Source of the DNA: Halanaerobium kushneri
Lineage (GTDB): Bacteria; Bacillota; Halanaerobiia; Halanaerobiales; Halanaerobiaceae
DNA: 64,000 nucleotides
Assembly: GCF_900156285.1 (NCBI RefSeq)
Contig: NZ_FTNC01000004.1
Coordinates: 1 to 64,000, forward strand
Direction of reading: 5' to 3'
Made by a program: the position numbers and the translations under genes. Position 1 is the first letter of the stretch. Each line of letters begins with the position of its first letter. The notes under the pieces were generated by a model that worked only from the letters and a program-made list of their open reading frames with translations, ran no database searches and had not been told where the DNA came from. Shown piece after piece: positions 50,631 to 60,762 of this stretch.

Positions 50631-50744
50631 ATTATGTCGAAAAGATAAGCGGATAAATTTTTTAATTAAATTGTAAAAATATTGAAATTATATAAATAAA
50701 AGTATATAATTAAACTGAAGCAAAAAAATAGAAGGGTGGTATTT

Positions 50745-51278
50745 ATGGTGCGCAAAAGAAGAGTCTGGTATCCTGGAGCAAAGTATCATATTACCTGTAG
50801 GGGGAATAAAAAAAGAACAATTTTTTTAGACAGGATTGATTTTAAAATATATATTAATATAATTAAAGAAATAAATAATAAATATCCATTTGTAATTCTA
50901 AGCTATTGTTTGATGCCTAACCATGTTCACCTGCATCTTAGAACTGAAGATATAGAAATCTGGAAAATTATGCAGGCTATTAACTGGCGTTATGCGCGTT
51001 ATTTTAACGAAAGATATAATACAGTAGGCCATGTATTCCAGGGTCGATATGGCTCAAAGATAATAGAAAATAATTACTACAATTTAATTGTAAATCGTTA
51101 TATTCATCTCAATCCGGTTAAAGATCAACTGGTCTTAAACCCCAAAGATTATCGCTGGAGCAGTTACAGGATCTATTTAGGAGAAGAAAAAAGTGAGTTA
51201 GTTAAAGAAGAGGAGATTCTAAACTATTTTGCTGGTGAAAGAAGTTTATATAATAAATTCATTATGGAATTTATTTAA
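50745..51278 (+). CDS. HUH/Y1 transposase of the REP-associated (RAYT/COG1943) type
   Basis: 177 residues from ATG 50745 (AAGGG at a good distance). The HUH motif is in YCLMPNHVHLHLR (about 70-82). RYIHLNPVKDQLVLNPKDYR contains the presumed catalytic tyrosine region, and YRWSSYRIYLG follows; HITCRGNKKRTIFLDRIDFK opens the domain. This is the domestic branch of IS200/IS605-like transposases, which move or maintain short palindromic repeats and lack flanking insertion-sequence ends. Its own repeat copy lies 114 bp upstream. The gene appears complete. Confidence 0.85.
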   Translation: MVRKRRVWYPGAKYHITCRGNKKRTIFLDRIDFKIYINIIKEINNKYPFVILSYCLMPNHVHLHLRTEDIEIWKIMQAINWRYARYFNERYNTVGHVFQGRYGSKIIENNYYNLIVNRYIHLNPVKDQLVLNPKDYRWSSYRIYLGEEKSELVKEEEILNYFAGERSLYNKFIMEFI

Positions 51279-51384: not shown

Positions 51385-51873
51385 CTAATTACCTTTACCA
51401 GGATTATTGCCTTTTCCCTTTCCAGAATTATTACCATTAACGGGATTCTTGTATTTGCCTTTAGCTTTTCCTTTTCCAGGATGATTATTTTGCATATAGT
51501 TATGAATCATATTTGAGAGACCTTGACCGGTCCAATCTTCATTATTTGCCTTGTAGGCTTTAATCCTTTGAGCCAGACCGCGACCAAAATTATCTCCATT
51601 ATAATTTTCATCATAGTCTCCATCATAATCGTCTTCAAATTCATCGTTATTATCTTCTAATTCTCCCAGAATTATTTTAATCATTCCCAGATCAATTTCT
51701 CCATAAATATCTACCATAGTGGTTAATTCATCTTTTAAGATAGTTTTTTGTTCCACTGTTAAGTCTAAATCATAGTCATTTAGATCAATATAGTCATCTT
51801 CAGCTGCCAGCAGTGGCAATGATAATGTGAGTATAATGATTAATACTGAAGTTGCAATTATTTTCATATTCAT
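51385..51873 (-). CDS. Secreted acidic protein with Gly-Lys/Asn-rich tail
   Basis: 162 residues. A signal peptide (cut near LAAED) is followed by a very acidic region (EDDYIDLNDYDLDLTVEQ and FEDDYDGDYDENYNGDN). The C-terminal 40 residues are basic and built from GK/NPGKG/NNSGKGKG units. Between them is a helical segment, GQGLSNMIHNYMQNNHPGKG. The charge flip from acidic core to basic tail suggests a cell-surface or polymer-binding role. I do not recognise it. AGGGAGG lies upstream of ATG 51873; ATG 51867 is an alternative. Confidence 0.6.
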   Translation of the reverse strand: MNMKIIATSVLIIILTLSLPLLAAEDDYIDLNDYDLDLTVEQKTILKDELTTMVDIYGEIDLGMIKIILGELEDNNDEFEDDYDGDYDENYNGDNFGRGLAQRIKAYKANNEDWTGQGLSNMIHNYMQNNHPGKGKAKGKYKNPVNGNNSGKGKGNNPGKGN

Positions 51874-52506: not shown

Positions 52507-52569
52507 TAACTGTTTACTAAACTTATGGAATTTTAATTGTTATTATTAAAGAGAAAAGATGGTATTTTT

Positions 52570-53115
52570 GTGAAGAAAAAGTATTTTACTTTATTAATTA
52601 TACTAGTGTTGGGTGGCTTAATTTTAGCTGCCTGCAGTAATGGCAGCAGTCCTTCTTTGAGAGGAAAAGTTTATTATAATAACACAGATTCCATGGTTTA
52701 TAATGCTGAGGTTTTACTTGATGGTCAGGTAAGAGATAAGACTGATTATTATGGTGAGTTTTATATTACCGGTTTGGAAAAAGACAGTTATACTTTAAGA
52801 ATTAGAAAAAAAGATGCTATTGAAGATTATGTAGAAACAGTTTATCCAAATGTTAATAATAATTTAATTATTAATGCTGTTCCGGTGGCAGATACAACAA
52901 TAATTAACGGTCAGGTCAATATAAGTAATAGAACAGAATATGAGGCATCAGGGATAAATAGTTCCAGTAATTTAAGATCTGCCTCTAATTTTAAAGATTT
53001 CAGTAAAGCAAAGATTGTTCAGGATGAAATAATTGTTAAATATGATAATTCAACTGTAACCAGTGCTTCAAATACGGTAAAAGAAGTTCAGGGATTAAAT
53101 ATTGCGAAAAAATAA
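52570..53115 (+). CDS. Lipoprotein subtilase, N-terminal part (interrupted by frame change)
   Basis: From GTG 52570 the frame encodes a lipoprotein signal peptide with lipobox LAAC (residues 18-21). A beta-sandwich domain of carboxypeptidase-regulatory type follows (about 30-100, LRGKVYYNNT... LDGQVRDKTDYYGEFYITGL), then the first strands of a propeptide (DEIIVKYDNSTVTSASNTVK). It stops at TAA 53113-53115, immediately after an A6 run (53107-53112). The downstream frame carries the rest of the propeptide and the protease. The ribosome-binding site is weak and an upstream TTG is possible. Treat it with the following entry as one gene. Confidence 0.75.
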   Translation: MKKKYFTLLIILVLGGLILAACSNGSSPSLRGKVYYNNTDSMVYNAEVLLDGQVRDKTDYYGEFYITGLEKDSYTLRIRKKDAIEDYVETVYPNVNNNLIINAVPVADTTIINGQVNISNRTEYEASGINSSSNLRSASNFKDFSKAKIVQDEIIVKYDNSTVTSASNTVKEVQGLNIAKK

Positions 53116-53174
53116 ATAGAGGCAGTGGTGACCTGGTTAAATTTAAAATACCAGCCGGAAAAACAGTTGAAGAA

Positions 53175-54548
53175 ATGATAGATTACTTTTCTAGTCAGCC
53201 TGGAATAGAATATGCTGAGCCCAATTACTATGTTTATGTCCAGTCTATTCCAAATGATGAGCGATATGACGAATTTGATTCCAATAATAATCGTAGCATA
53301 ATTCAGTGGGGCTCAATATCTACAAATCTTGAAGCAGCCTGGGATGAACAAAAATATAGCAGTTCAGTTACTGTAGCTGTTCTTGACTCCGGAATTATAC
53401 CAGATCATGAAGATTTACAGGCTAATATATCTGGAGGAGCAAATTTGGTTGGTGATAGTGGTGGAAATACTGATCCTAGAAATTATACTGCTAATACAGA
53501 TATAAGAGACAGAACAACTCAAGCCGATGGCGGAAGTCATGGTACTCATGTTGCAGGAATAATTGGAGCTTTAACTAATAATACTACGGGAGTAGCCGGA
53601 GTTAGCTGGGGTATAAACTTAATGCCGGTAAAAGTTTTAGATGATACTCAAAGTGGAAATACTTTTGACGTGGCAGAAGGAATTTACTATGCTGTTGATA
53701 ATGATGCTGATGTTTTAAATATGAGCCTTGGTGCTGATTTAGATTCCAACAATCTTCCTACTCATTTGACAGAAGCGGTTGAATTTGCTGATAGTAGGGA
53801 TAAAATTCTAATAGGAGCATCTGGAAATAATGGATCTAGTTCAGTATTATATCCTGCTGCTTATCCAGAAGTGATAGCAGTAGGCGCTGTAGACATTAAC
53901 AATCAGCAGGCAAGTTATTCAAATTATGGTTCAAACTTAGATGTAGTAGCACCCGGTGGAGATTTTGATGTTGACACTGGTATTTTAAGCACCTGGGGAT
54001 ATTTTGAAAATGGAACTTTTTATACAAATGAATATACAGAAATGGAAGGAACTTCAATGTCAGCTGCTTATGTTAGTGGTGCAGCAGCTTTATTGCTAGA
54101 AGCAGGAGTTAGTCCTGAAAATGTAAGGAGAAGATTAACTTCCACAGCTGTTGATTTAGGTGCTGAAGGTAAAGATTCTGAATATGGTTATGGAATGATT
54201 GATATTTATGGAGCATTATTAAATCAAAAAATAGGAGCCCCCTATGTATTTGCAGCCACTGAAAACAATGGGACTTTGATTATTGAGAGTAATTCAACCC
54301 GAATGAATAGTGATGGCAGTTATTCTTTAGCGGATAGAATTATTGGAGATTATTATATGGTTGCCTGGAGAGACATCAATGATAATTTTGAGATTGACGG
54401 AGGAGATTATTTTGGTATAACGGATGCAGCGGAATATTATAATCCAGGTGCAGTTTATGATAATCAGGATATAGACATGTATTATGTGACCTCAAGCTCT
54501 TCTGCTGCTTCATTAAGTGTAGAAGGTATTGAAAAATTAAGAAACTAA
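53175..54548 (+). CDS. Lipoprotein subtilase (peptidase S8), catalytic part
   Basis: In the -1 frame the reading continues from base 53112 as INRGSGDLVKFKIPAGKTVE and on through EMIDYFSSQPGIEYAEPNYY, the standard end of a subtilase propeptide. The catalytic domain follows: D71 (VAVLDSGI), H122 (GGSHGTHVAGIIGAL), oxyanion N218 (SGNNGSS) and S294 (GTSMSAAYVSGAAALL), all intact, numbered from ATG 53175. A C-terminal beta domain of about 120 residues (GTLIIESNSTRMNSDG... ) ends the protein. ATG 53175 has only a poor ribosome-binding site and would lack most of the propeptide. The protease gene is followed by a BsuPI-domain gene. Confidence 0.82.
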   Translation: MIDYFSSQPGIEYAEPNYYVYVQSIPNDERYDEFDSNNNRSIIQWGSISTNLEAAWDEQKYSSSVTVAVLDSGIIPDHEDLQANISGGANLVGDSGGNTDPRNYTANTDIRDRTTQADGGSHGTHVAGIIGALTNNTTGVAGVSWGINLMPVKVLDDTQSGNTFDVAEGIYYAVDNDADVLNMSLGADLDSNNLPTHLTEAVEFADSRDKILIGASGNNGSSSVLYPAAYPEVIAVGAVDINNQQASYSNYGSNLDVVAPGGDFDVDTGILSTWGYFENGTFYTNEYTEMEGTSMSAAYVSGAAALLLEAGVSPENVRRRLTSTAVDLGAEGKDSEYGYGMIDIYGALLNQKIGAPYVFAATENNGTLIIESNSTRMNSDGSYSLADRIIGDYYMVAWRDINDNFEIDGGDYFGITDAAEYYNPGAVYDNQDIDMYYVTSSSSAASLSVEGIEKLRN

Positions 54549-55384: not shown

Positions 55385-58300
55385 ATGGTTAAAAACAAAG
55401 TTAAATTAATTGATAAATATATTATTAAGGAGGTCAGCTGTCCCTTTGTTTTAGGGGTTTTTATAGTTACTGTGATTTTAATTGGTAATTATTTTTTTCA
55501 GCTGACTGACTTAATAATTGTTAAGAAGGTACCCGTTCCGCTTGTTTTACAACTTTTAGCTTATAAGATTCCCTCAGTAATGGTAGAAACCTTTCCAATT
55601 GCAGTTTTATTTGCGACCATGACCGGAATTGGTCGACTAAATAGAGAAAATGAGATTACTGCTATTCGGATGGGAGGAGTTAGTATTTTTAGGCTTATTA
55701 TTCCCCTGTTGGTTATCGGGATTACGGTAAGTGGATTAACTTTGGTTTTAAATGAAGATGTGGTTCCCTGGGCCAATCATCGTGCAAATAATATTATTAG
55801 AGAAACAATATTAAAAGAGGCTATGCCTGAACCGGAGGCAGAAGTTTTTTTTAAAGGACCCCAGGGACGCCTTTTTTATGTGGAAAAATATGATAAAAAA
55901 GCAGGAGAACTGCATCGAGTTGTTATTTATGAGCTAAACCAGGGCCAGTTCCCGGAAGTTATTACAGCTGAGAGGGGAACAATTGAAGAAAATCGCTGGC
56001 TTTTAGATTCGGGAATTATTCATCAGTATGATGAGCAGGGTAAAATTGTTTTAGCTAGTAAATTTGAGGAGATGGAAATTCAGCTAACTGATGAGATGCA
56101 GGAGCTTTATGGTAGTCAGAAATCTCCATCAGAGATGAGCAGAGAGGAGCTGGGTAAAAGAATTGCCTTGTTTAAAAAAAGTGGAATTAATGTTGATTCA
56201 CTGCTGGTGGATTATCACTTAAAATTGGCTGAACCGCTGACCGCTTTGCTATTTGTGCTGATTAGTGTACCTTTAAGCTTGAGTGGTAAGGAAAGCAGAA
56301 CTCTAAATTTGATTTTTACAATTGTAATTGTGTTTTTATATTATGTGATTCTCTCCTTTAGTCGTTCCTTTGGTAAAAATTATATACTCCCTCCTCTTGT
56401 TGCTGCCTGGCTGCCCAATCTTATTTTTCTATTTCTGGGAGTTATCCTGCTGTTCTGGCGAGACTCCTGGCAGAAGATAATTAATAAAATCTTTAAAATT
56501 CTAGGAATTTCGACAGCAGTTTTTTTACTTCTTTTTATTTTGAATACGGATGGGCAGGCTGCAGATTTTCTGGTTAAGGCTGACTATTTAGACTATGATC
56601 AAAGTAGTGACTTTGTTAAAATCAAGGGTAATATTAACGGCAGTTATGGTCAATATTATTTAAAATCAGAAGATATAAAAATAGAGCTAGCTGATGGCAG
56701 TCAGACCAAACTAGAAAGAACAAAAAATCTAGAGCTGCTGCCGGGAGAGATTTCTGGCTGTGATTTTGGGCAGCCCCATTATTATTTTGACGCAGAACGG
56801 GTCATTATCAGACCGGGTGAGTATATTAAGATGTATAATATTATGTTCCGGGAATTAAACGGCAAACTCCCGCTTTTATACTGGCCTTATCTCTATATTT
56901 CTCTCAAACAGGAAAACAGTAACTTTGTTCCTGCCTTTGGCTATCATCAACAGCGGGGATGGTTTATCAAAACCAGGTATTTTTATAATAATCGCTTTGA
57001 TCTCCCCGGTAATTTTTATCTTGACCACTATACTATTTCTGGTACAGCAGGAGGAGTAAAACAGTATTTTATTAATAACAGCCGGCAAAAGGCCTATCTT
57101 TATTATTACAGCCAGCAGAATAAAACCGATCTTTCGGGTCTTTTCAACTGGGAAGCCGAATTATATCACGAAGCTAATCCCGGAAATTGGGAAGAAGATT
57201 TTTCTTATTTTTATCAGGACTATGATAATAAAATCGAAATAGATTCCGCACTTGACTTTTATTATAAAAAGGAGAGCCGCCGCAGCAGAATCAATTTTGA
57301 TTATGAGGAGCAGGATTATTTTGAAGCCAACAATCGTGATCAAAGAGATTACGGTTTTGATTTTTATTTTTATGATCGTTTTTTTGATAGTTTATCAACC
57401 AGATTAAATTATGATCGAGAATATTTTCGTGATCCTGAAGACGGACTTGAAAGAGAAATTAACAGAGAGCTGGATTTACGCTATAACCCGGGTGAAGGCT
57501 GGCGTAGTCGATTAAATTACTATAATGGAGAAAGAGAAAGTCCGGGAGAGTCTTTAAAGAGCAGAGAAGGTGGAGAATTTTCAATTTCTAAAAGAAGCGG
57601 CTATTATGACTTTGTTTTTTTAATGGAGCAGTATGCTCCCCGCTTAACAGAAGCTGATCAGGTTAAGTTTTCTCGTCTGCCGGAATTATCTCTGGAATAT
57701 AATCCTCCAGGACCTTTTTCTTATTTAGCTCAATTAGGTCGTTATTACGAAGATTTCAGTGGAATCGAAGCTTATCGTCTGCGGGGAGAAGCAAAATACA
57801 GTGATGGCTTTGTATTGCCACTAAACAGTTACTTGCGAGTGCTGCAAAAATTTAGCAGTAGTGGCTATCAGATTGAGGGAAGAGAAGATAATAGCATACC
57901 CGGGCAGCAGCAGTCAGCAACAGAACTAAGGCTGCGGACAAATTTAAGTCGTAATTTACGTTTGCGAAATAATTATAAATATCAGCAGCAGTGGGGCTAT
58001 ACGCCTTTTAACTTTGACGAAGGAGAAAAAGAAAATCAGATTGAAAATATGCTTGACTACAGAATTCTTCCCTATCTATATTTTAATCTGGAAAGTGGCT
58101 ATGACTTTCTGGATTATCAGTATCTGCCCCTGGAATTATATCTGAACTTAAATCCGACTGAAAATTGGGAACTTAAAATGGGTACCCGCTATGACTTAAA
58201 TAATATGATTTTTGATGATAATCTAATTTTTCATAGTGTCTACGAGGGGCAGCGCTGGGAACACAGGTTGGGACTGGAATATAATCTTAATACTTCTCAG

Positions 58301-58600
58301 CTTAGAGAAATTGACAATCAGTTAATTTATAAACTAGAAGGAGACTGGGGTTGGTATTTTGAAAGTAATTTAAGTTTTGATTATGATTATGACAGTCAGA
58401 TCAGTGAGGCCAATATTCAGCTAAATAAGAAGTTTCACTGTCGAGAGCTCAAATTCAGCTATGATTATCTTAAAGAGGAATTTACAGTTCAGTATGCGCT
58501 TGAGATTTTTCCAGCAGAACCTGTTGGTTTTACTAAAACTGAGGATGATTTGATTTTTGAATCCAGTATAGAGGATCGTCTTAAAAGTGGTGAACTGTAG
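55385..58600 (+). CDS. LptF/LptG-type permease fused in frame to an LptD-like outer-membrane barrel
   Basis: 1071 residues with no stop. Residues 1-360 are a YjgP/YjgQ (LptF/G) permease: DKYIIKEVSCPFVLGVFIVT, ENEITAIRMGGVSIFRLIIP, a periplasmic jellyroll, then HLKLAEPLTALLFVLISVPL and two more helices. Residues 363-391 look like a signal peptide (basic, then FKILGISTAVFLLLFILN, GQA-A). Residues 392 onward are LptD-like: an OstA-type N domain (VKADYLDYDQSSDFVKIKGN), the hallmark PHYYFDAERVIIRPGEYIKM plus PLLYWPYLYISL, then a long barrel. No ATG, GTG or TTG lies in frame at the junction. With six helices before it, the internal signal peptide would enter the membrane in the right orientation. 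Confidence 0.85.
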   Translation: MVKNKVKLIDKYIIKEVSCPFVLGVFIVTVILIGNYFFQLTDLIIVKKVPVPLVLQLLAYKIPSVMVETFPIAVLFATMTGIGRLNRENEITAIRMGGVSIFRLIIPLLVIGITVSGLTLVLNEDVVPWANHRANNIIRETILKEAMPEPEAEVFFKGPQGRLFYVEKYDKKAGELHRVVIYELNQGQFPEVITAERGTIEENRWLLDSGIIHQYDEQGKIVLASKFEEMEIQLTDEMQELYGSQKSPSEMSREELGKRIALFKKSGINVDSLLVDYHLKLAEPLTALLFVLISVPLSLSGKESRTLNLIFTIVIVFLYYVILSFSRSFGKNYILPPLVAAWLPNLIFLFLGVILLFWRDSWQKIINKIFKILGISTAVFLLLFILNTDGQAADFLVKADYLDYDQSSDFVKIKGNINGSYGQYYLKSEDIKIELADGSQTKLERTKNLELLPGEISGCDFGQPHYYFDAERVIIRPGEYIKMYNIMFRELNGKLPLLYWPYLYISLKQENSNFVPAFGYHQQRGWFIKTRYFYNNRFDLPGNFYLDHYTISGTAGGVKQYFINNSRQKAYLYYYSQQNKTDLSGLFNWEAELYHEANPGNWEEDFSYFYQDYDNKIEIDSALDFYYKKESRRSRINFDYEEQDYFEANNRDQRDYGFDFYFYDRFFDSLSTRLNYDREYFRDPEDGLEREINRELDLRYNPGEGWRSRLNYYNGERESPGESLKSREGGEFSISKRSGYYDFVFLMEQYAPRLTEADQVKFSRLPELSLEYNPPGPFSYLAQLGRYYEDFSGIEAYRLRGEAKYSDGFVLPLNSYLRVLQKFSSSGYQIEGREDNSIPGQQQSATELRLRTNLSRNLRLRNNYKYQQQWGYTPFNFDEGEKENQIENMLDYRILPYLYFNLESGYDFLDYQYLPLELYLNLNPTENWELKMGTRYDLNNMIFDDNLIFHSVYEGQRWEHRLGLEYNLNTSQLREIDNQLIYKLEGDWGWYFESNLSFDYDYDSQISEANIQLNKKFHCRELKFSYDYLKEEFTVQYALEIFPAEPVGFTKTEDDLIFESSIEDRLKSGEL

Positions 58601-58614
58601 AAAGGAGATAAGAT

Positions 58615-59286
58615 ATGCATACTTTTAGAATAAAAACAGCGCTTATTATTTTTATTTTAATTTTAACTTTTAGCATATTAATTCCTGCTCTGGCTCAGAA
58701 TAAGCAACCAGAGGAAGCAGAAACAGCAGTAGAGAGTGAGACTGTCTATATCAACGCATCAAGATTAGAATATCAGGAAGAAAAAACCCTTTTGAGTGGA
58801 GGAGTCAGAATTCAAAAAGGTGATACAATTATTAATGCCAGTCAGGGAGAGCTTTTTCGGGACCAACAAAAAATAGTTTTAAAAGAAGAAATTGCAGTAG
58901 AATATCCGGATGGTCGGGTTAAGTCCGAAAAATTAACTGTTTTTTTAGAAAATGAAGAATATATTTTCGAAGAGGCAGCAGTACTAAATTATCTGCTGTC
59001 TGATGGCAAAGAAATGGTGCTCTACAGTGATTACTTAAAAATAACTGGAGCCAATAAGTCTTTCATTGCTGAAAAGAATGTGGAAATTGATTATGATAAT
59101 CAAAAGTTTAGAGGGGATAAAGCAAATTATAATGGAGAAAGTGAAACAATGGAATTAACTGGCAATGTAGAGATTGAAGAAGGCAGAGACTGGGTTCGTA
59201 GTGATCGGGCCACCTTTAATTTAAAAGAAGGAGAAGAAGGTTATACTGCAGAAGGAAATGTTGAAATTAAAATGATACTCGACTAA
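58615..59286 (+). CDS. LptA/OstA-like periplasmic lipopolysaccharide-transport protein
   Basis: 223 residues. A signal peptide (IKTALIIFILILTFSILIPA, cut near ALAQ) and a short acidic linker precede repeated OstA beta strands (VYINASRLEYQEEKTLLSGG, VRIQKGDTIINASQGELF, NVEIDYDNQKFRGDKANYNG, MELTGNVEIEEGRDWVRSDR). The repeats fit an LptA bridge rather than the shorter LptC. It starts 14 bp after the permease-LptD gene, with GAAAGGAG before ATG 58615. It would span the periplasm between the permease and LptD. LptB is not in this window. Confidence 0.85.
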   Translation: MHTFRIKTALIIFILILTFSILIPALAQNKQPEEAETAVESETVYINASRLEYQEEKTLLSGGVRIQKGDTIINASQGELFRDQQKIVLKEEIAVEYPDGRVKSEKLTVFLENEEYIFEEAAVLNYLLSDGKEMVLYSDYLKITGANKSFIAEKNVEIDYDNQKFRGDKANYNGESETMELTGNVEIEEGRDWVRSDRATFNLKEGEEGYTAEGNVEIKMILD

Positions 59287-59355: not shown

Positions 59356-60762
59356 ATGGGTGTTATTTTAACAATTCTATCAGCAGTATTAATGACAGCT
59401 GCTAATTATTATGGACACCTATATTTTTTGAGCTGGTTTGCTTTCCTGCCATTTTTTTACTACATCTATATTTATAGTCCGGAAATTAATTACCGGAAAA
59501 TTTTTTTAAGAGGGTGGAATCTTGGATTCTGGATTTTATTGTTATCAGCTAACTTTTTGTATTATTCTATTAAATTATATACATCAGCCGCTACTATAAC
59601 TATCATTCTGCTCTTAATTTTGCTTTTTTTAGTACTCTCTTTAATTTACGGGCTATTTTTTATGCTATATTTTTATCTGCAGCAGCAATTATTTGCAAAA
59701 AGATCACTTTCGGCATTTTTCTTTGCTGGCTGCTGGACTCTTTTTGAGCTGGTCCGTCATTATTTATTTTTCTTTTTTCCAATTGCGAATCCTGCCTATA
59801 CCCAGGCTGAGTTCTTAAGTTTTATTCAGCTGGCTGATGTTGGAGGGACCTGGCTTCTTACATTTATTTTGGTTTTTGCCAATGGACTAATTTTTCAGAT
59901 TATCTTTCAAAAAAAATTTAAAAAAGCAGTTATACTTGGGTTTTTACTTATTTTTATTTTTAGTTTTGCTAATTATAGCGAGCAGAGCTGGGGTTTCAGC
60001 AATAATGTTGACAGGGAAAAAATAGAAATCGGAATTATTACAAGTGAGATTGCACAGCAGAAAAAATGGAGTGCCGATCAGCTGCAGCGGAATATAGAAC
60101 TGACCTTAAATGCAGCTCCGAAATTGAACCGGGCCCGGCTTATTATAGCTCCCGAAACAAATCTGACCTTTGACTTTGAAGCTGATCATTATTACCGTCA
60201 GGAATTTTTAGCTAGGGTTGCTGCAGAGCTTAAAACTCCTATTCAAATTGGATCACTGGCGTCTAAAGATACTGGTAGTGGCCGCTATAATAGTTCCTAT
60301 CTGATTTCAAACAAGGGGAAAATCATTTCTCGTTATGATAAAAATTTACTTCTCTACTTTGGCGAAACCTATCCCTTTATTGATTTGCTGAATAAATATA
60401 CATCTTATAGTTTTTCATCTCTCAATGCAGGGGAAGAAAAAAAGATATTTGAATATCAAAATTTAAAGTGGGAAACTGTGATTTGTTCTGAGATATTATA
60501 TCCTGAGTATGTTAGATTAAATAGAGAAGAAGTAGATTTTATTGTAAATCAAACCAATGAGGCCTGGTTTCGGGAAAGCCAGCTGTTAAAAAATATAATG
60601 TGGCAGGCGGCTGTATTTAGAGCTGTTGAGAATCGAATACCGGTAATTAAGACAGGTAATAAATCTTATAATGGGATTATCTATCCTTCCGGTAATTATC
60701 AGCGAGTTGATTCCAGAGAAAATTATCATATACTTAATCTTGAGCTACAGCATGTTAAATGA
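59356..60762 (+). CDS. lnt: Apolipoprotein N-acyltransferase
   Basis: 468 residues. Six or more N-terminal membrane helices precede the CN-hydrolase domain. The Glu-Lys-Cys set is visible: RLIIAPETNLTF (Glu), ISRYDKNLLLYFGETYPF (Lys) and WETVICSEILYPEY (Cys). NQTNEAWFRESQLLKN and AVENRIPVIKTGN are the usual late segments. Lnt adds the third acyl chain to lipoproteins, a step linked to lipoprotein export by the Lol system. That fits a diderm with lipoprotein-type exporters and a lipoprotein protease nearby. GAGGAGAG precedes ATG 59356. Confidence 0.92.
   Translation: MGVILTILSAVLMTAANYYGHLYFLSWFAFLPFFYYIYIYSPEINYRKIFLRGWNLGFWILLLSANFLYYSIKLYTSAATITIILLLILLFLVLSLIYGLFFMLYFYLQQQLFAKRSLSAFFFAGCWTLFELVRHYLFFFFPIANPAYTQAEFLSFIQLADVGGTWLLTFILVFANGLIFQIIFQKKFKKAVILGFLLIFIFSFANYSEQSWGFSNNVDREKIEIGIITSEIAQQKKWSADQLQRNIELTLNAAPKLNRARLIIAPETNLTFDFEADHYYRQEFLARVAAELKTPIQIGSLASKDTGSGRYNSSYLISNKGKIISRYDKNLLLYFGETYPFIDLLNKYTSYSFSSLNAGEEKKIFEYQNLKWETVICSEILYPEYVRLNREEVDFIVNQTNEAWFRESQLLKNIMWQAAVFRAVENRIPVIKTGNKSYNGIIYPSGNYQRVDSRENYHILNLELQHVK

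Follow-up and report, generated by a model that had tools for sequence, protein, structure and literature searches.

One uninterrupted gene of Halanaerobium kushneri joins an LptF/LptG-type permease, a protein of the inner membrane, to an LptD-like barrel, a protein of the outer membrane. We consider it likely that the product is a single precursor whose internal signal peptide is cut to yield an LptF and an LptD, that the two belong to a second Lpt line in the cell, and that the fusion originated through loss of a stop codon. One point against this explanation is the position of the signal peptide, which is unusual in following 360 residues of preceding protein. The gene lies in the window, by which we mean the whole stretch of 64,000 nucleotides that was analysed (contig NZ_FTNC01000004.1, positions 1 to 64,000), and its features and downstream neighbors are as follows.

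55385..58600, + strand: lptF-lptD fusion gene; 1071 codons plus stop, ATG start, single uninterrupted frame
55415..56452, + strand: LptF/LptG permease domain with six transmembrane helices (residues 11-356); PF03739, with Foldseek and VIA matches to LptF/LptG chains
56453..56506, + strand: cytoplasmic basic linker, or n-region of the signal peptide (residues 357-374); net positive in 30/30 fusions
56507..56542, + strand: h-region (hydrophobic core) of the internal signal peptide (residues 375-386); mean Kyte-Doolittle value 2.86 over 12 residues, and alignment
56543..56560, + strand: c-region with the predicted signal peptidase I site G-Q-A (390-392) before Ala393 (residues 387-392); AxA-type site in 30/30 fusions
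56561..58597, + strand: LptD-like part, a short OstA-like N-domain followed by a beta-barrel (residues 393-1071); profile, fold and motifs
56759..56761, + strand: codon of Cys459, presumed to supply the N-terminal half of a long-range disulfide; a cysteine in 22/22 homologues of the alignment
58439..58441, + strand: codon of Cys1019, presumed to supply the C-terminal half of that disulfide; a cysteine in 21/22 homologues of the alignment
58615..59286, + strand: second cassette gene, encoding an LptA/LptC-like protein of the periplasm that has a signal peptide; PF03968 1.3e-12, PF06835 2e-10
59356..60762, + strand: lnt, apolipoprotein N-acyltransferase, a neighbor probably outside the module; TIGR00546 3.3e-69

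The two halves of the fusion protein

The preliminary description of this locus had proposed a single frame with an Lpt permease in the first 360 or so residues, an LptD-like barrel in the last 680 or so, and a signal peptide between them at about residues 363-391. This architecture is confirmed: the frame of 1071 amino acids is free of stop codons, PF03739 spans residues 11-356, the barrel assignment of residues 393-1071 is supported by profile search and Foldseek, and a signal-peptide-like segment is found at about residues 359-392. The segments that had been singled out as conserved, PHYYF (with HYYF at residues 465-468) and PLLYWPYL (496-503), indeed fall in conserved, mostly invariant alignment columns.

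The permease half matches PF03739 with 337.7 bits (cut-off 27.9; E 1e-100) over model positions 1-351 of 353. Its fold is that of LptF/G in solved LptB2FG complexes, with VIA Z scores of 19-24 across residues 5-372; the rmsd to the LptF/G chains was 7-10 in the longest alignments and 2.6-3.0 over about 210-240 residues in several. In a Foldseek search with the model of the whole protein, the top rows were LptD and LptF/G chains. The AlphaFold models are of middling quality, the full-length one having a mean pLDDT of 67 with values below 50 at the junction, and the other a mean pLDDT of 73.7.

PF04453, the Pfam model for LptD, matched nothing across all 38 genomes of the order; this model is narrow, recognizing 2 of 14 controls, and is a detection model, not a biological definition. 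Given its silence, we name the protein LptD-like, a homologue outside that model, and base its identity on sequence profile, fold, motifs and context. When PDB sequences were searched with a profile built from 20 homologues, the best match was P. aeruginosa LptD (E 0.003), and the N-domain matched LptA. When a separate AlphaFold model of the barrel half was searched with Foldseek, the first 37 rows were all LptD (E 2e-17 to 8e-7), and the first unrelated barrel in the list had an E of 7e-6. The VIA-align Z score cannot tell LptD from TonB-type or other large barrels for this model, so support for the LptD fold is taken from Foldseek and sequence, by which residues 393-1071 are predicted to form an LptD barrel with an OstA-like N-domain.

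Assembly of E. coli LptD requires a disulfide between its N- and C-terminal parts. Here, Cys459 and Cys1019, conserved as listed above, are normally the sole cysteines of the LptD part, and the pair is shared by independent fusions and by the genome's core LptD; Cys459 aligns with a cysteine of P. aeruginosa LptD (8h1r). Presumably a single disulfide, Cys459-Cys1019, ties the N-terminal to the C-terminal region of the LptD part, and a conserved pair of this kind is the pattern expected of an exported, folded LptD.

One polypeptide across the junction

In the stretch that begins about 70 codons ahead of the junction and ends 60 codons beyond it, the only start codon is a TTG (codon 386), which lies within the hydrophobic core and has no Shine-Dalgarno sequence. 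The earlier statement that no usual start codon lies at the junction was thus nearly exact, this single TTG being the exception. Relatives L005 and L006 (84% identical) have no ATG, GTG or TTG there at all. In comparison with genome G016, residues 356-374 show zero nonsynonymous differences at about 0.9 synonymous differences per site, and the permease and barrel parts are likewise under purifying selection. The proposal that the barrel is made in one polypeptide with the permease is therefore upheld by the lack of a usable internal start, by constraint at the junction and by conservation in relatives.

If the barrel were instead made mainly from its own start codon within the frame, the fusion would be merely formal. 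The high-GC fused families f71, f46 and f80 do show several ATG, GTG or TTG codons near the junction, whereas the window gene offers within about 60 codons only the one TTG, in the h-region and lacking a ribosome site, and L005 and L006 offer none. The start-codon scan leads us to reject an internal start for the window gene, and we regard this explanation as highly improbable. An even lower probability, close to nil, attaches to the idea of an artefact or decaying gene, in which a missed stop codon or a sequencing error would have fused two genes. It could appeal to the fact that the genes do occur apart in related genomes, and otherwise to the oddity of the arrangement alone. However, the open frame is conserved across many independent assemblies and purifying selection spans the junction; a frame that stays open in 20 of 38 genomes, together with constraint on the linker, is due neither to chance nor to sequencing error, and the relatives carrying the same fusion refute this reading.

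A probable internal signal peptide

LptF/G proteins have six helices with the N and C ends both in the cytoplasm, and the linker that follows the permease can therefore begin a second export signal. In each of the 30 fusions examined, the linker carries a net positive charge, the hydrophobic core is strong, and an AxA-type site occurs within 14 residues; among 134 control helices, 68 have such a site (Fisher p 2e-8, which serves as a guide only since the rows are related). In the alignment many fusions carry VSA, VQA or ALA followed by an acidic residue, and the G-Q-A site of the window gene is less canonical than the VSA, VQA or ALA of most relatives. Separate LptD homologues have an ordinary N-terminal signal peptide at the corresponding place, and one gene for signal peptidase I (LepB) was found in this genome. 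The features of a Sec and signal peptidase I substrate, namely a positive n-region, a hydrophobic core and an AxA-type site, are all present in the fusion.

Signal peptidase I probably splits the precursor into LptF and LptD. The preliminary description had proposed such a cut, and the signal features of the fusions, the N-terminal signals of the separate homologues and the single LepB favor it, the cleavage itself being inferred from sequence; its suggestion of a fixed 1:1 ratio of permease to LptD holds for synthesis only. We envisage that the first six helices of the one precursor would enter the membrane as an LptF-type permease whose two ends face the cytoplasm, after which the basic linker and the short hydrophobic segment would serve as an ordinary, though internal, Sec signal peptide and signal peptidase I would cut after about residue 392. 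LptF would stay in the inner membrane, probably keeping the used signal peptide as a seventh helix, and would join LptB2 as a homodimer or with LptG. The LptD part would be freed into the periplasm, Cys459 and Cys1019 would pair, and BAM would insert the barrel into the outer membrane. The neighboring LptA/C-like protein would then bridge to LptD, and the cell would have a second Lpt line, not essential, in parallel with the core line.

Were the chain left uncut, it would form the covalent inner-to-outer-membrane tether that had also been raised, with the whole chain, for at least part of its life, anchored by the permease in the inner and by the barrel in the outer membrane. If true, this would fix the site where the trans-envelope bridge is built. 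The frame is continuous in 20 Halanaerobiales genomes as well as in other families, and cleavage is a reading of the sequence, which leaves room for such a tether; but the AxA-type site and the short h-region are conserved in all 30 fusions, and separate genes with N-terminal signal peptides exist, the state having switched repeatedly, so that the covalent link is dispensable. In addition, the approximately 100 residues from junction to barrel, much of which lie in the folded OstA-like domain, would hardly span the usual periplasm. A tether is thus disfavored, and we judge it highly improbable.

Distribution and origin of the fusion

A search of relatives, which the preliminary description had called for, found the same fusion in 20 of 38 genomes of the order; the permease is in a separate gene in 5 and absent in 12, and one copy is cut by a contig end. 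Relatives are therefore mixed, and not uniformly provided with separate genes and a start codon at that point, an arrangement that had been named as grounds for refutation. Fusion records include Halanaerobium saccharolyticum WC1, Halothermothrix sp. DTU029, Fuchsiella alkaliacetigena Z-7100 and Candidatus Frackibacter WG13. Outside the order and class, the fusion also occurs in families f46, f71 and f80. In the searched genomes of f46 and f71 the fused gene is the sole PF03739 match wherever any was found, and in f46 lptB lies downstream of the fusion, with an lptA-like gene between them in the one case detected. The genes have also come apart repeatedly; in genome G024 some 33 kb lie between permease and barrel.

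In a tree of 75 permease domains, a core LptG-like clade, which adjoins lptB in Halanaerobiales, stands apart from an LptF-like clade whose members mostly adjoin, or are fused to, lptD. Placing all fusions (with nested splits) in one clade was rejected (p-AU 0.004), which rules out a single fusion event with all fused rows in one clade. The tree requires at least two fusions, or one fusion and several later splits; one ancient fusion with many later splits may be the alternative to several fusions, and in some families the fused gene has split again. In Halobacteroidaceae MAGs, of a neighboring lineage, lptF and lptD share one frame with a gap of 12 nt, only stop codons standing between them, and the permease stop (TAG) overlaps the AGGAGG site of lptD. 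We infer that the fusion may have arisen through stop-codon loss between such tightly coupled, same-frame genes.

Some arrangements differ from these. In G027 (L028:1-1868), the C-terminal part of lptD lies just upstream of a separate lptF, the reverse of the usual order. G026 (L041:3258-5942) has a separate lptF with LptA/C-like genes on both sides, one more than elsewhere, and G076 (L075, G076:C8) has fused and separate LptF-type permeases together with a third PF03739 gene.

A second Lpt set and its possible cargo

The genome of H. kushneri also contains a core cluster, lpxD-lpxC-fabZ-lpxA-lpxI-lpxB-lptC-lptA-lptB-lptG, and about 8 kb beyond lptG a separate LptD-like protein of 591 aa (L034:16784-18559; G000 contig C5). 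As a core LptG and a separate LptD are present, the fusion with its LptA/C-like neighbor constitutes a second Lpt set. One lptB lies in the core cluster, and none adjoins the fusion in the window. Some genomes have the LptG type only, and in others only the fused type was detected; LptG-type and fused-type permeases are thus presumably each able to homodimerize.

In relatives an LptA/C-like gene adjoins the fusion or the split permease, and in same-genus genomes it is missing together with the fusion. Four genomes of the genus (G014, G015, G017 and G018) keep the flanks, with POR, MgtC ... lnt and, where covered, HD-GYP or cls, and lack the cassette. The fusion cassette is dispensable within the genus.

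The same precursor and cleavage could also serve a cargo other than LPS, another glycolipid or a lipoprotein, with the core LptG and LptD handling LPS. This is compatible with our preferred explanation, and we consider it possible though rather unlikely. Two permease/LptD pairs in one genome and a cassette that is dispensable within the genus point in this direction, as do the non-LPS roles of Lpt proposed elsewhere (PMC11784454) and lnt as the next gene. On the other hand, the presence of lnt is independent of the fusion, and in f46 the fusion that is the sole LptF/G detected adjoins lptA- and lptB-like genes, as expected of a general Lpt line. The position of lnt behind the cassette does not support a role in lipoprotein export, since genomes across the order have lnt-type genes whether or not they have the fusion, and only in some do the two adjoin.

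The window holds other features upstream of the cassette. An S8-type serine protease gene (52537-54548) is apparently broken between 53115 and 53175 into propeptide and catalytic frames, and the syntenic gene of G016 (L125) is one 605-aa frame. A frame at 50736-51278, between the POR and MgtC-like genes, resembles by eye a Y1/REP-type transposase, and 51385-51873 (- strand) encodes a small exported protein whose repeats are acidic (DDYDGDYDENY) and GKGN-rich.

Significance and comparison with known systems

An earlier survey (Antunes et al. 2016, PMC5007114) recorded a single LptF/G in Halanaerobiales and found no LptD there; the Veillonella LptD Vpar_0647 was found later by proteomics (PMC5491611). 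Our analysis supplies LptD candidates, both fused and separate core ones, for the order in which the survey had none. No description of an LptF-LptD fusion was found in the open-access literature searched, which is only part of all literature. The fusion shows that the proteins at either end of the LPS-export bridge, which normally are made separately and sit in opposite membranes, can be encoded as one precursor, and that this has happened repeatedly; the lptF-lptD linkage extends through a phylum of diderm Firmicutes. Families with the fusion as the sole LptF/G detected would be a test case for homodimeric permeases and fixed synthesis ratios, and likewise for cleavage at an internal signal peptide in a precursor with halves that end in different membranes.

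The fusion shares with LptF and LptG of LptB2FG(C) (PF03739; PDB 6mit, 5x5y) the entire permease domain, its fold and its topology. In contrast to them, it continues past helix six into a signal peptide and LptD, and its permease scores under the NCBIfam cut-offs of both LptF and LptG. With the LptD translocon (PDB 8h1r, 5iv9, 4q35) it has in common the OstA-like N-domain, the P-x-x-Y-x-P-Y motif region and one cysteine at either end of the mature protein, but here the protein is the C-terminal half of a permease fusion and is unmatched by PF04453. E. coli LptD has four cysteines, whereas the LptD part of the fusion has a single pair. FbcH of Bradyrhizobium japonicum is a precursor of cytochromes b and c1 that are separated at an internal signal sequence. 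Like FbcH, the fusion combines a polytopic inner-membrane protein and an exported partner in one chain with an internal signal; the two are non-homologous, and the partner in FbcH remains in the inner membrane whereas here it would go to the outer membrane. Finally, the Lpt set of diderm Firmicutes (PMC5007114, PMC5491611) comes from the same kind of envelope and comprises an lptC-lptA-lptB core with a single LptF/G, as does the core cluster of this genome. Compared with the survey (PMC5007114), however, there are here two LptDs and two LptF/Gs, one pair of which is fused.
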